64,000 nt of DNA from Janthinobacterium sp. (lineage in GTDB: Bacteria > Pseudomonadota > Gammaproteobacteria > Burkholderiales > Burkholderiaceae_D), in assembly GCF_009923995.1 (NCBI RefSeq), contig NZ_RFSK01000025.1:1-64000 (forward strand). The letters run 5' to 3'. Under the pieces are notes generated by a model. That model was given only the letters and a program-made list of their open reading frames with translations. It did not search any database and had not been told where the DNA came from. Below are positions 8,756-13,069 of this stretch, piece after piece (position 1 is the stretch's first letter; the number at the start of each line of letters is the position of its first letter). The translations under genes and the position numbers were made by a program.

Positions 8756-8832
8756 CGGGGTGTGGCTCAGCCTGGTAGAGCGCTGCGTTCGGGACGCAGA
8801 GGCCGGAGGTTCGAATCCTCTCACCCCGACCA
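8756..8832 (+). tRNA. tRNA-Pro (anticodon CGG)
   Basis: The 77 nt gene folds as a standard cloverleaf: acceptor CGGGGTG/CACCCCG, anticodon stem CTGCG/CGCAG around the loop TTCGGGA (anticodon CGG, reads CCG), T-loop GGTTCGAATCC, and an encoded 3' CCA. Its last 45 bp double as the left attachment site of the insert that follows. Confidence 0.97.
8788..8832 (+). repeat. Left attachment repeat (attL) inside tRNA-Pro
   Basis: The 45 bp from the anticodon loop to the CCA of tRNA-Pro recur without mismatch at 11500-11544. Anticodon-loop to 3'-end duplications are the usual footprint of tyrosine-recombinase integration into tRNA genes. The intact tRNA stays on the left side. Confidence 0.9.
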
Positions 8833-9027
8833 AGATTTTGTTGAAAATCAGGGCCGAGGGAACTAATGGTCAAGTTTGGCTACTGCCGAAGCAATAGCCT
8901 ACGATATCTCATAATACTTCCGAGCCGAGATTTTTTCTCCCATTGTCGGTTTGGCCGACGCTAAATAACGCGCCCGAAATATCACAAAATCCGCCACTAA
9001 TAACTTCACGTAACTTCGGGCTGTGAA

Positions 9028-9054
9028 AGGCCTCAATCAGTCGAACTGAGGCCT
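9028..9054 (-). terminator. Terminator-like hairpin at the end of the 680-residue gene
   Basis: AGGCCTCA / TGAGGCCT arms (9028-9035, 9047-9054) flank the stop codon at 9037-9039. On the minus strand the stem is followed by TTTC, a weak T-run. Confidence 0.55.
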
Positions 9055-11079
9055 GTCTACCTCCTCCAACGTTGCCGCGAAACTGCATTCCCTCAAGCGT
9101 TTTTCGAGCATCTCCTGAGGAGGAAAGTCCATTTCCAAAGCGCGATAATAACCTTCAACGTCCGTGTCATCGAATCCCTTCACTCGATAGTCGACAGAGA
9201 CTATACATCGCGCAAAAAACTCTGCCTTGGGCGACTTCCTTAGAGCAGCAATAACACCGTCCGCCACGTTGCCATGCGAACCTATTTGAATTGGTGCCAT
9301 CAGGGTGAAATCTTCCACTCCGCGCGTCAGACCAAAATACATCGCCCCAGAAATCACATTAATTAGCGTATCCCAGTGGCAGTAGCATATATCATCGCTG
9401 TACAGACCATCGCGCAAATATGAATTAGTGACAACCAAACCAAATACTCTAGTCACTTTCCCACGCAAGCTTTCATCGTTCGCCCATTCGGCAATTTGGT
9501 TTAGGTCATGCTTTAGGGCGATACATTGCTTACGGCATTGCCCAGCTTTTTTCTCTAGCCGTGCTTCGGTCTCATGAAACTCATAAGCCTCAGCTGGAGA
9601 AGGAATCGAGGCCGTTTCAATAACAAACGCAGTGTCATCGATTACGATCAGCAAGTCGATATCCTCGTCCGGTTTGTGGCGCGGACTTAATGCCATCCCG
9701 ACAAAATGCATGTGACTCTGATGCAAACTTTTTACGATTGCGCTACGTATCGCCTCTGCCAATATCGCTTCGTTAGCGGGACCTTTGCTATCAAAGGCAA
9801 TCGCGAGTTTTTTATGATTTTTGGCCCAGGCGCTCAGCAGGCGAGCATGGTGCACTCCTTGCAGGGGCCACCAAAGTAACATCACATCATCCCCTGCAGA
9901 CAGCAACGGCTTGTCCCACAACGTAACGCCTTTGGCGGATGTGAAGCAGAGAAAATCAATACATTCCCTTAGCTTATCTGAAGATAACACCACACATTCT
10001 CTAAGTGTGTTGATTAATTCATGTTTCGAGATGCGGCTTGCGACTATCATCGATAGTTTCTTCTTATCCGCGAGTATATCTAGCGACTGTGCCAAGGTGT
10101 GAAGTTGGCCAGCTATCGTCGCCAGCTCACCCCAAATAACCATGATCTCGCTGACACACAGTCCCACTTGAGGATGAATCTCTTGGATAAAGTTTCCCAG
10201 CGTGGCGTCTTGCAGAATACCGTGCGAGCGACGTGCTTCCAGTAAAACCTCACGCTCCTCCTCCGGTACCAGAAAAGCGGGCAGAGCCTGCAAGGTCAAG
10301 CGGCCATCACACAGGCGTATGTATGGAATTAAAACGTTGTTGTTGGGAGTAACCGAATTGGCACCTTGGGAGTTCTCGAAGGCTCGTGCCATCAAGGCTG
10401 GGCGTCGCGCAAGATCGACAGTAGCACGCGATACCAAATCACTGTCACGTTCATCAACAACGTAGCTTCGACCATCCGGGGTGACCACAACAGCCGCTCT
10501 CCACCAAACCACCGAGTTCCAAACCCTCTGGATCGACAAACTGTGCTGGGCGAGGGCCATAAGTTGGTTCATTGTATCGTCTAAGGGGAACTCCTCTCGC
10601 CGTTCGCCCCCCAGATTTCCCAGCCCACCTGTCCGCCCCAGCAGTTTCAATGCACTACCGATGGCGTCCACAATTGCTTCCATAGGCACTTGTAAAGAGT
10701 GAGAGTTACCGGCTCCATCGGTAAAGCACCGCATTTCATGCATTCGCTCACTGGAAATAGCTTCTACCCCCTCCAGAGCTTTTTTAAAACTATTGAATAC
10801 AGTTAGCTGTACTTCGTTTATACGTGTGGAGAAAAACGGGGAAAGTTCGTCAATTTTTCGAAAGTGAAGGTTTGATGCAAGGTGCTCAACACTCCCCTGC
10901 ACGCGCTCAGTCTGATGAGCTAGCACAAGCCCTAGTAGATAGACGTGATAATCTGCCGGGCTACTATCATGTTGCGCCAGATAGGCTTGATGCCAGACAT
11001 CTCGGTCGAAACCGTAGCCGGTAGGATTAGGTAAGGAAGTAGGCGCCTTCCTGAGAGTTTCAGCAAAATTTAGTTTCAT
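9037..11079 (-). CDS. Uncharacterised 680-residue protein with a possible PD-(D/E)xK-like C-terminal domain
   Basis: I do not recognise the family. The protein is soluble (no signal peptide or membrane helix). Residues 1-420 are mixed alpha/beta with no motif I can name. From about residue 432 the order of elements recalls the restriction-endonuclease-like fold: a helix with Glu437 and Glu442, a strand EDIDLLIVI with Asp475, a strand AFVIETA with Glu488, then a Lys/Arg-rich helix with KKAGQCRKQ, and a strand RVFGLVVTNS. The usual lysine two residues after the catalytic Glu is Ala490, so the site is either altered or inactive. It is the only gene of the tRNA-bounded insert. An AAAGG ribosome-binding site precedes the ATG at 11079, and a candidate promoter lies at 11172-11200. 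Its position suggests a stand-alone defence or satellite cargo gene, but this is inference. Confidence 0.8.
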   Translation of the reverse strand: MKLNFAETLRKAPTSLPNPTGYGFDRDVWHQAYLAQHDSSPADYHVYLLGLVLAHQTERVQGSVEHLASNLHFRKIDELSPFFSTRINEVQLTVFNSFKKALEGVEAISSERMHEMRCFTDGAGNSHSLQVPMEAIVDAIGSALKLLGRTGGLGNLGGERREEFPLDDTMNQLMALAQHSLSIQRVWNSVVWWRAAVVVTPDGRSYVVDERDSDLVSRATVDLARRPALMARAFENSQGANSVTPNNNVLIPYIRLCDGRLTLQALPAFLVPEEEREVLLEARRSHGILQDATLGNFIQEIHPQVGLCVSEIMVIWGELATIAGQLHTLAQSLDILADKKKLSMIVASRISKHELINTLRECVVLSSDKLRECIDFLCFTSAKGVTLWDKPLLSAGDDVMLLWWPLQGVHHARLLSAWAKNHKKLAIAFDSKGPANEAILAEAIRSAIVKSLHQSHMHFVGMALSPRHKPDEDIDLLIVIDDTAFVIETASIPSPAEAYEFHETEARLEKKAGQCRKQCIALKHDLNQIAEWANDESLRGKVTRVFGLVVTNSYLRDGLYSDDICYCHWDTLINVISGAMYFGLTRGVEDFTLMAPIQIGSHGNVADGVIAALRKSPKAEFFARCIVSVDYRVKGFDDTDVEGYYRALEMDFPPQEMLEKRLRECSFAATLEEVDRPQFD

Positions 11080-11499
11080 GAGATAGGCCTTTCTAAAGAG
11101 AAATAAGGACGCACAGCTTAATTCTGTAGTGAGGTGGAGTAACCTACTAACTTAACTACGTGAACCGCCAAATAATTGCCCAATCCATTGTTATTTTCAA
11201 CATTAAATTCTTGAGAAAATTTACGATGAAGTATCTATACAAATTCGAAATTAATCAATTGGCAAGAGAGCGAAGATTTTACGCTAATACACATCAGATG
11301 AAGGCTGGCTATAGTCTTGCGCGCTCCTTTGAAAATAGTAATTTAAATCACCACTAAAAATAGCGCTATGACAATAAAGACATTCTGCAGGCTAATTGTC
11401 TTCGCTTATCGATTTATCAGCAAAGTGTAGAGTGTCGAAATTTTAATCAAAATGGCCAAGATCCGTACGAGTACTGGCTCATAGAATATGAGCTCGTTA
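11080..11499. other. AT-rich leader of the insert, no convincing gene
   Basis: These 420 bp lie between the start of the 680-residue gene and the right attachment repeat. They are the most AT-rich part of the window. A plus-strand frame (11160-11357, GTG start, 65 codons) exists, but it has no ribosome-binding site and no recognisable sequence, so I do not call it. The stretch contains the candidate promoter described separately. Confidence 0.6.
11172..11200 (-). promoter_or_regulatory. Candidate promoter of the insert's gene
   Basis: On the minus strand TTGAAA (11200-11195), a 17 bp spacer and AATTAT (11177-11172) precede the start codon by about 93 bp. The match is moderate (both hexamers imperfect) in an AT-rich background. 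Confidence 0.35.
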
Positions 11500-11544
11500 T
11501 TCGGGACGCAGAGGCCGGAGGTTCGAATCCTCTCACCCCGACCA
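11500..11544 (+). repeat. Right attachment repeat (attR), tRNA-Pro 3' end
   Basis: An exact 45 bp copy of 8788-8832, from TTCGGGACGC to CCCCGACCA. The 5' half of a tRNA (acceptor, D arm) is missing in front of it, so it is not a functional tRNA gene. It marks the right edge of the insert. Confidence 0.9.
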
Positions 11545-11674: not shown

Positions 11675-13069
11675 ATGTCTTTCCTGATAGTTCTGGCCGC
11701 TCTGGCCTTCCTCATGCTGGCCGCCTACCGCGGCTACAGCGTGATCCTGTTTGCGCCCGTGGCCGCACTGGGCGCCGTGCTGCTGACCGATCCGTCCGCC
11801 GTGCCGGCCGTGTTCAGCGGCATCTTCATGGAAAAGATGGTGGGCTTCATCAAGCTGTATTTCCCCGTCTTTTTGCTCGGTGCCGTGTTCGGCAAACTCA
11901 TCGAACTGTCCGGTTTTTCCCGCTCCATCGTCGTAGCCGCCATCCGCTATATCGGCAGCGCGCGGGCGAATGCCGTCATCGTGGCCGTGTGCGGTGCCCT
12001 CACCTATGGCGGCGTGTCGCTGTTTGTGGTGGTGTTTGCCGTGTATCCGTTCGCGGCGGAACTGTATCGGCAAAGCAATATCCCCAAGCGGCTGATGCCG
12101 GGTGCCATCGCCCTGGGCGCGTTTTCGTTCACCATGGATACCTTGCCGGGCACGCCGCAGATCCAGAACATCATCCCCACCACCTTTTTCAATACCACGG
12201 GCTGGGCCGCACCGTGGCTGGGCACCATCGGCGCCATCCTGACGGTAGTGTCTGGCCTGGCTTTCCTCGAATGGCGGCGCCGCTCCGTCATGGCGACAGG
12301 CGAAGGCTATGGGGCCGAGGCCGAGCAGTCCACGGCCGACGCGGGCGACCTGCCCCATCCGCTGCTGTCGGTGGCGCCCCTGGTGCTGGTGGGCGTGGCC
12401 AACTTTGCGCTGACCAAGCTGATTCCCCACTGGTATGGCGACAGCTATGTGCTCTCCGCCGACGCGCTGCCGGGCCTGCATGCGCCCGTGTCGACGGCCA
12501 TCGCTTCCGTGACCGGCATCTGGGCCGTGGAAGGCGCCTTGCTGCTGGGCATCCTGCTCGTGTGCGTGACGGCCTTCGGACGCATCCGCGCCGCCTTTGC
12601 CGAAGGCACCAAGGCGGCCGTGGGCGGCGCCTTGCTGGCGGCCATGAATACGGCATCCGAATATGGCTTCGGCGGCGTCATCGCCGCCCTGCCCGGCTTC
12701 CTCGCCGTCAGCAATACCTTGCGCAGCGTGCCCGACCCGCTCGTCAACGCCGCCGTGTCCGTGACGACCCTGGCCGGCATCACGGGATCGGCCTCGGGCG
12801 GCATGAGCATCGCGTTGGCCGCCATGTCCGACAGTTTCATCCAGGCGGCCCGGCAGGCGCACATCCCGCTGGAAGTGATGCACCGCGTGGTGGCCATGGC
12901 CAGCGGCGGCATGGATACCCTGCCGCACAACGGCGCCGTGATCACCCTGCTGGCCGTCACGGGCCTGACGCACCGCCAGTCCTACCGCGACATCTTCGGC
13001 ATCACCATCATCAAGACCGTCATCGTGTTTTTCGTGATCGGCATCTATTACATGACGGGCCTGGTCTAA
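11675..13069 (+). CDS. GntP-family permease
   Basis: A 464-residue polytopic inner-membrane protein with about 12-14 hydrophobic helices. It has the GntP-family layout, including the paired motifs FSFTMDTLPGTPQIQN and ASGGMDTLPHNGAV in the two halves, which suggest the inverted-repeat architecture of the ion transporter superfamily. Substrates of relatives are gluconate and related hydroxy acids or 3-hydroxybutyrate. The substrate here is unknown and no catabolic gene adjoins it. I use the ATG at 11675, preceded by GAGGG; the frame extends 24 codons upstream into the palindrome at 11611-11656 and is not used. Confidence 0.85.
   Translation: MSFLIVLAALAFLMLAAYRGYSVILFAPVAALGAVLLTDPSAVPAVFSGIFMEKMVGFIKLYFPVFLLGAVFGKLIELSGFSRSIVVAAIRYIGSARANAVIVAVCGALTYGGVSLFVVVFAVYPFAAELYRQSNIPKRLMPGAIALGAFSFTMDTLPGTPQIQNIIPTTFFNTTGWAAPWLGTIGAILTVVSGLAFLEWRRRSVMATGEGYGAEAEQSTADAGDLPHPLLSVAPLVLVGVANFALTKLIPHWYGDSYVLSADALPGLHAPVSTAIASVTGIWAVEGALLLGILLVCVTAFGRIRAAFAEGTKAAVGGALLAAMNTASEYGFGGVIAALPGFLAVSNTLRSVPDPLVNAAVSVTTLAGITGSASGGMSIALAAMSDSFIQAARQAHIPLEVMHRVVAMASGGMDTLPHNGAVITLLAVTGLTHRQSYRDIFGITIIKTVIVFFVIGIYYMTGLV

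Follow-up and report, generated by a model that had tools for sequence, protein, structure and literature searches.

We analysed a 64-kb stretch of DNA (the window) on contig C72 of a Janthinobacterium sp. genome (G000; assembly of 6.18 Mb in 154 contigs), concentrating on the only tRNA gene that ARAGORN calls in it, tRNA-Pro(CGG) at 8756-8832 (+). The final 45 bp of this gene recur beyond an insert of 2,667 bp, which carries a single convincing gene, encoding a 680-aa protein that we call P0001, and in which no integrase was found. The features of the locus are:

8756-8832 (+): tRNA-Pro(CGG), the integration target (ARAGORN; Rfam RF00005, 67 bits)
8788-8832 (+): attL, the proximal attachment (att) repeat, comprising the tRNA's final 45 bp from the anticodon loop to CCA (repeat match)
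8833-11499 (no strand): the insert, 2,667 bp, GC 0.472, with boundaries set by the repeat and by the empty sites in 13 relatives
8833-9036 (no strand): left non-coding arm, 204 bp, in which the tests for arm motifs and shared 9-mers came out empty
9037-11079 (-): P0001 gene, 680 aa, the insert's sole convincing gene (list of open reading frames (ORFs); constraint relative to the Root335 relative)
9526-9771 (-): P0001 residues 437-518, with E437, D475, E488 and Q514 (nine-sequence alignment; coordinates calculated)
11080-11499 (no strand): right non-coding arm, 420 bp, 36% GC, upstream of the P0001 gene (composition, ORFs)
11500-11544 (+): attR, the distal att repeat, the displaced 3' end of the tRNA (repeat match)
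11675-13069 (+): downstream neighbour, 464 aa, transporter-like (by eye), conserved, used as the far-side marker of the empty site

The two repeat copies (8788-8832 and 11500-11544) are identical at 45 of 45 positions, as a sequence-only reading of this DNA had claimed, and both att ends are kept. The pair is the sole exact direct repeat of at least 24 bp in the 64 kb, and the 45-mer has two exact copies in the whole assembly, both at this site. It starts at tRNA position 33, within the anticodon loop. The attR copy is not a duplicated tRNA gene, since the 5' half is missing from it and ARAGORN reports no tRNA at that place. The insert is indeed AT-richer, as had also been stated: its GC content is 0.472, against 0.633 in the window and 0.645 and 0.631 in the adjoining 3-kb stretches. 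The P0001 frame occupies 77% of it, and the remaining ORFs of at least 50 aa lying wholly within the insert, none longer than 93 aa, were treated as chance. Between 8700 and 11700, promoter and terminator matches were no more frequent than in shuffled sequence, and Rfam returned for the insert region, besides the tRNA, one match far below its gathering score.

We set the position of tRNA-Pro beside that of the transporter-like gene in 40 genomes of the genus, one per species, G000 included. The site is empty in 13 of them (G004, G009, G016, G017, G018, G020, G023, G025, G028, G030, G036, G061 and G063), with a gap of 92-151 bp from tRNA to transporter. Nine genomes, G000 among them, hold 2.8-25.5 kb in this interval, and 18, in which the transporter gene is inverted, split, unlinked or missing, were left unclassed and enter neither count. 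The spacers of G002, G035, G029, G005, G031 and G011 share a gene block, which we took by eye to be chromosomal. When the window's flanks are joined through either repeat copy, the same sequence results, and it aligns with all 13 empty sites from the end of the upstream gene across the tRNA and towards the transporter start, the flanks being colinear across the joint. Up to the tRNA end the identity is 0.76-0.94, highest for G030. These continuous empty sites, which match the joined flanks, show that the insertion is real and precise. The segment is not common to all relatives, nor is the distal copy, without its 5' half, a duplicated tRNA, the two outcomes that the sequence-only reading had named as refuting its proposal. 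That there is no insert at all, only a chance repeat or a plain tRNA duplication, found no support; it is contradicted by the empty sites, the exact 45-bp pair and the restriction of the 45-mer to two copies in the assembly, and for all practical purposes we regard it as ruled out.

The absence of an integrase from a one-gene cassette, likewise proposed from the letters, held up under direct searches. The PF00589 profile has 10 matches in the assembly and 0 on C72, and tblastn with four integrases or integrase-like proteins encoded at this tRNA in relatives found none in the insert at E≤0.1. The insert's single convincing ORF has no relaxase or conjugation match in Pfam, NCBIfam or PHROGs. Elsewhere in G000, no close relative of the integrases known at this tRNA was detected: the nearest PF00589 match (L111) reaches 33% to the G266 integrase over 296 aa and adjoins a tRNA-Leu, and the second nearest (L107) reaches 32% to the G033 integrase over 177 aa, with no tRNA found in the 3.5 kb around it. 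PF00589 alone could miss a protein of the type found in G010, which falls below that model; with this protein as the query, G000 gave no match at E≤1e-10.

The locus thus presents a restored tRNA gene, a displaced 3' fragment and empty sites in relatives, the marks by which tRNA islands are recognized, and lacks a cognate integrase on board. These three marks bear out the earlier proposal that the repeat layout is a footprint of tyrosine-recombinase integration into a tRNA gene; such an integration, into the anticodon region and with the tRNA restored, is well supported. We consider it very probable that the insert is a small integrated islet of the cis-mobilizable element (CIME) type, integrated by a tyrosine recombinase that the islet does not encode and carrying one maintained NERD-like gene. 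A crossover in the anticodon region would have joined a circular molecule with the 3' half of tRNA-Pro(CGG) to the chromosomal gene; the copy on the element would have restored the tRNA, and the host's own 3' end would have been displaced to 11500-11544. The reaction would be of the tyrosine-integrase type, its enzyme not encoded in the islet and either supplied by another element or lost as a larger island shrank. In this scheme the class of the enzyme, the function of P0001 and any present mobility are what we infer.

The cargo gene has one weak Pfam match, NERD (PF08378; E 0.035, 15.1 bits, below the cut-off of 22.1); the weak pattern of NERD or PD-(D/E)XK type lies in the C-terminal part of its product. 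P0001 shares with NERD proteins a weak profile match, seen at E≤1 in six of nine aligned sequences, itself included (best E 0.00058), and an acidic motif pattern: E437, D475, E488 and Q514 are conserved in the nine-sequence alignment, which we take to be the pattern expected of a PD-(D/E)XK fold. It differs from them in lying below the curated cut-off and in having no ExK lysine. The ExK motif presumably corresponds to E488-T-A490, with a lysine expected at 490; at this position (9610-9618, -) lysine stands in five of the nine sequences and arginine in one, and P0001 and the two relatives nearest to it have alanine, an apparent loss or shift of a catalytic residue within the family. Because of the alanine, P0001 may be inactive or may use another lysine. 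No PADLOC family (0 at E≤10), and hence no model of a known anti-phage system, was matched by P0001; NCBIfam gave no match and phmmer none at E≤5, while a profile search of solved structures gave two matches that we took as chance (E 0.37 and 0.81). The AlphaFold2 model, computed from P0001 and its Root335 relative, has a mean predicted local distance difference test score of 33, with all 680 residues below 50.

The evidence that the gene is maintained comes from its nearest relative, in Massilia sp. Root335 (G381; 67% over 680 aa, the sole match in the contig scan). Between the two genes the nonsynonymous rate dN is 0.22 and the synonymous rate dS is 2.6, the latter near saturation, and substitutions at codon positions 1, 2 and 3 number 169, 102 and 371; this ratio and this pattern show that the gene is under constraint. 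The P0001 family occurs in one of the 40 genus genomes (G000 itself), in nine of 392 genomes of the bacterial family (G000 plus three strong and five weak matches) and, by profile search, in two of 369 genomes of a class sample (G000 plus one partial match). Scanning IMG/VR with P0001 patterns, which reaches close relatives only, yielded nothing, as did tblastn of P0001 against plasmid and phage collections. One relative, in G287, lies near genes that by eye resemble defence genes. P0001 is probably a nuclease-like conflict (defence) protein.

The Root335 relative also resides at this tRNA. Its genome has the tRNA 3' end three times on C8, at 73523, 85315 and 85429, the last two 114 bp apart, partly masked and with the appearance of a tandem tRNA pair, and the island measures 11.8 kb. 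Its P0001-like gene stands at the distal end, oriented to the tRNA as in the window and one gene from the distal repeat; the gene between them encodes a DUF4268 protein that matches PADLOC PDC-S11 (1.5e-120). The island further carries a VgrG-like protein, an Ntox15-domain protein and a Tdi1-type immunity protein, and beside the tRNA a fragment similar to the integrase-like protein of G010 (48% over 116 aa); no conjugation gene was recognized by eye, no profile search having been made for them. A P0001-type gene is thus present in the tRNA-Pro islands of both the window and Root335, having arrived at one and the same tRNA in two genera.

Other cargo between the same ends, for which the sequence-only reading had recommended a search, is present in relatives (G022 and G366, for example). 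Other members of the genus in which the tRNA 3' end is present a second time are G022 (1,991-bp insert), G010 (15.1 kb), G033 (11.7 kb) and G008 (9.3 kb, imperfect). Neither the ORF list nor tblastn revealed an integrase in G022, whose two genes have no convincing family match; the G008 insert has transposase-like genes, named by eye. In G033 a 664-codon frame with a PF00589 domain (6.3e-17) follows the tRNA. A 496-aa protein lies beside the tRNA in G010, with weak, sub-cut-off Pfam matches to integrase N-terminal and central domains (best E 0.0028) and none to PF00589; from a catalytic pattern noted by eye, it is probably an integrase. In G019 we find a G033-type integrase that is truncated, together with one 407-aa frame that has no match in Pfam. 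A weak integrase fragment is also kept at the G006 locus, and two of 40 hand-picked further tRNA-Pro loci (L123, L153) have such fragments within 2.6 kb.

Across the bacterial family, 249 of 392 genomes carry the exact 45-mer (C or T allowed at one position), 28 of them in at least two copies. These 28 include G000, G010, G022, Root335 and G160, whose copies lie on two contigs; the other 23 comprise 17 with tandem copies 110-161 bp apart, two with copies on different contigs and four with an insert, namely G366 (2,213 bp), G290 (627 bp), G387 (20.5 kb) and G266 (19.4 kb). We read the G366, G290 and G266 inserts whole and that of G387 up to about its last 0.9 kb. The integrase of G387 (PF00589) comes right after the tRNA, and that of G266 (PF00589) is at the far end. 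The G366 insert (L114 1449-3174) encodes a PAAR protein (PF05488, 2.4e-19) and has two genes without a Pfam match, with no integrase recognized among ORFs, by Pfam or by tblastn; the G290 insert has no convincing gene and no recognized integrase. Exact repeats without a recognized integrase are therefore found in G022, G366 and G290, besides the window. In G366 and G290 the likeness continues into the bases past both repeat copies, and the ends of these inserts may therefore reach further than the tRNA and may have another history.

Several side observations were made at these loci. In G033 (L066 3804-6140), a type III-A retron-like pair of reverse transcriptase and phosphoribosyltransferase (PADLOC 1.4e-108 and 1.3e-87) lies within the integrase-bearing tRNA-Pro island. 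The G366 genes possibly include a type VI secretion system (T6SS) effector and immunity pair. In G019 (L086 1073-1612), the start of the G033-type integrase runs into a frame that by eye resembles an IS110-type transposase, an example of integrase loss. G061 and G017 (L100, L101) have no insert, and their tRNA-Pro differs at 4-5 positions; some of the changes in the G017 tRNA are shared with those of G033 and G019, perhaps as the scar of a lost island. In G011 and G031 (L090, L092), the best tRNA-Pro(CGG) match starts at about tRNA position 14, and ARAGORN calls no tRNA in the fetched stretch.

The crossover can be placed most closely in G033, whose repeat copies have six mismatches: they agree at tRNA positions 31-47, the longest exact agreement, and differ after position 47, which puts the crossover in the anticodon region. 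We infer an anticodon crossover for the window's own copy as well. One group of the site's integrases comprises the G010-type protein and the Root335 fragment, and the other the G033 integrase with that of G387 (49%) and the distant one of G266 (30%). Among 61 genomes searched, the G010-type protein occurs in two (G010 and Root335) and is intact in one; it was not detected in G000, G022, G366 or G290.

We looked for integrase arm sites in two ways: exact 9-mers shared by the left and right arms were counted against 30 shuffles, and motifs were searched in 300 bp on each side. G010 shares 15 overlapping 9-mers between its arms (shuffles: mean 0.03, maximum 1) and Root335 five (mean 0.30, maximum 4); the count is one in G033 (maximum 1), two in G266 (maximum 2), one each in G022 and G008 (maximum 2 in both) and none in G366 and G290. 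The test is weak, because the integrase-bearing G033 and G266 also stay within the shuffle maximum. Islands of the G010 group have copies of TGTAGTAC in both arms. TGTAGTACT lies 68 nt before the distal core, on the same strand, in the G366 insert, and at 69 nt in Root335; outside the G010 group it is found in one of seven right arms (0.001 expected) and in one of 23 arms overall (0.010 expected), figures that are descriptive since the motif was noticed before testing. In G033 and G019, AGTGGCAAAT follows the tRNA at a distance of 57-58 nt, and G387 has it there with one mismatch. Four loci without a recognized integrase have it as well: G005, G002 and G035 at 69-71 nt and G024, in a form with one mismatch, at 73 nt. 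It is missing from the left arms of G029, G006, G032 and G008 and from seven control sites, of which five belong to the 13 empty sites and two are unclassed. A trailer motif (AAATCA about 13-18 nt from CCA), considered as an integrase site shared by the occupied loci, was dropped because similar trailers occur at loci without an intact integrase (L123, L156, L157).

Several results weigh against reading the insert as an islet integrated by a tyrosine recombinase encoded elsewhere. To the right of the joint, identity to the 13 empty sites is just 0.49-0.78, with indels. The insert DNA has no match in phage and plasmid collections, its arms share no 9-mer, and neither TGTAGTACT nor AGTGGCAAAT occurs within one mismatch in the 300 bp searched on each side. 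Host Xer may have been used as an alternative source of the enzyme. Moreover, a ready-made insert could have come by homologous recombination through the flanks. The proposal would be that this strain gained the insert from a carrier relative, for example by transformation, and the flanks are conserved across the genus; such recombination accounts for the last transfer alone and not for the first insertion, however, and there is no other carrier among the 40 genus genomes, so that we hold it to be quite unlikely.

If the insert is an islet of the kind we favour, how did it come to be without its integrase? The sequence-only reading named two answers, a remnant or a cassette moved in trans, and they remain the right pair of alternatives, between which the data do not choose for this insert. 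It is a serious possibility, if short of probable, that a larger tRNA-Pro island with its own integrase underwent an internal deletion in which the integrase and most of the cargo were lost and the P0001 gene stayed behind near attR. Decay of this kind is seen in Root335, where the gene stands at the distal end and a broken integrase-like gene lies by the tRNA, and in G019, with its truncated integrase and 407-aa frame; the weak fragments in G006, L123 and L153 agree with it. The window's insert, however, has no integrase trace at E≤0.1, and G000, G022 and G366 present three inserts of 2.0-2.7 kb with differing cargo, no recognized integrase and exact repeats kept. Those three would be at home in the other account, which we put forward tentatively: the islet would already have lacked an integrase on arrival, and the enzyme of a second element using this target would have inserted it. 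It is favoured by repeats that are exact although the attR copy has no obvious function, by the recurrence of this format, with other cargo, in G022 and G366, and by the arm sequence that G366 keeps at nearly the distance seen in Root335. Yet both arm motifs are absent from the window's arms, the candidate G010-type enzyme was not detected in any of the four genomes with integrase-free inserts and is intact in one of 61, the G366 arm site could also have been left by deletion, and the ends of the G366 and G290 inserts may have another history. We give slightly more weight to decay than to arrival without an integrase, since the arms of the window's insert fit none of the site's known integrases.

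Extending the trans account to the site as a whole, tRNA-Pro(CGG) would host a standing population of integrase-free islets of 0.6-2.7 kb, with at most three conflict genes each, shuffled in trans by the integrases of visiting islands via retained arm sites. We think this unlikely; if it were true, the islets would be cassettes resembling those of integrons, with the tRNA gene as docking site and a NERD-like protein, a PAAR gene set and an unknown pair as cargo. Independently of that, integrase-bearing, broken and integrase-free inserts occur together at a single site, on tRNA ends that are nearly identical; one of the integrase-free ones retains an arm sequence, and this mixture makes the question of trans-mobilization directly testable. 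The cargo is of interest in itself: P0001 is nuclease-like and maintained, neither PADLOC nor NCBIfam has a model for it, and the island of its nearest relative has a PDC-S11 match and T6SS-type genes.

Integrase-free inserts in tRNA genes are a known kind of element, and this site shows several; our literature search for Janthinobacterium, genomic island and tRNA-Pro combined found no paper. Close counterparts are CIMEs, which have att sites at both ends and no integration or transfer genes, and which are described as decayed integrative and conjugative elements (ICEs) or integrative and mobilizable elements (IMEs) joined by accretion (PMC5704250). The islet shares with them the att ends, the lack of integration and transfer genes, and a target in common with integrase-bearing elements of related genomes; it differs in that no ICE or IME ancestor was identified for it and no tandem element was seen in G000. 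ICE/IME ancestry and mobility apart, it fits the definition. In Dehalococcoides, 15 ssrA islands lack an integration module, and the same genomes contain further islands that possess one (PMC3146451): there too islands without a module share one RNA gene, but the enzymes are serine recombinases and the target is tmRNA, whereas here they are tyrosine integrases and tRNA-Pro. The additive flexible islands of Methylophilaceae have end repeats from tRNA-Lys and inserts of 330 bp to 42 kb with 1-63 coding sequences (PMC10872708); as in our case, repeats of a tRNA 3' end accompany variable inserts, but those repeats are of 20 bp and vary in number, compared with one 45-bp pair here. Finally, the account of Islander lists the anticodon region among the crossover classes of tyrosine integrases and states the algorithm for integrase-encoding islands, noting that some islands encode none and rely on host Xer (PMC4383910). 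The window's insert shares with Islander's tRNA islands the restored tRNA, the displaced 3' fragment and the anticodon crossover class, and differs from what the algorithm needs in having no integrase; because such finders start from the integrase, integrase-free islands like this one are easily missed.

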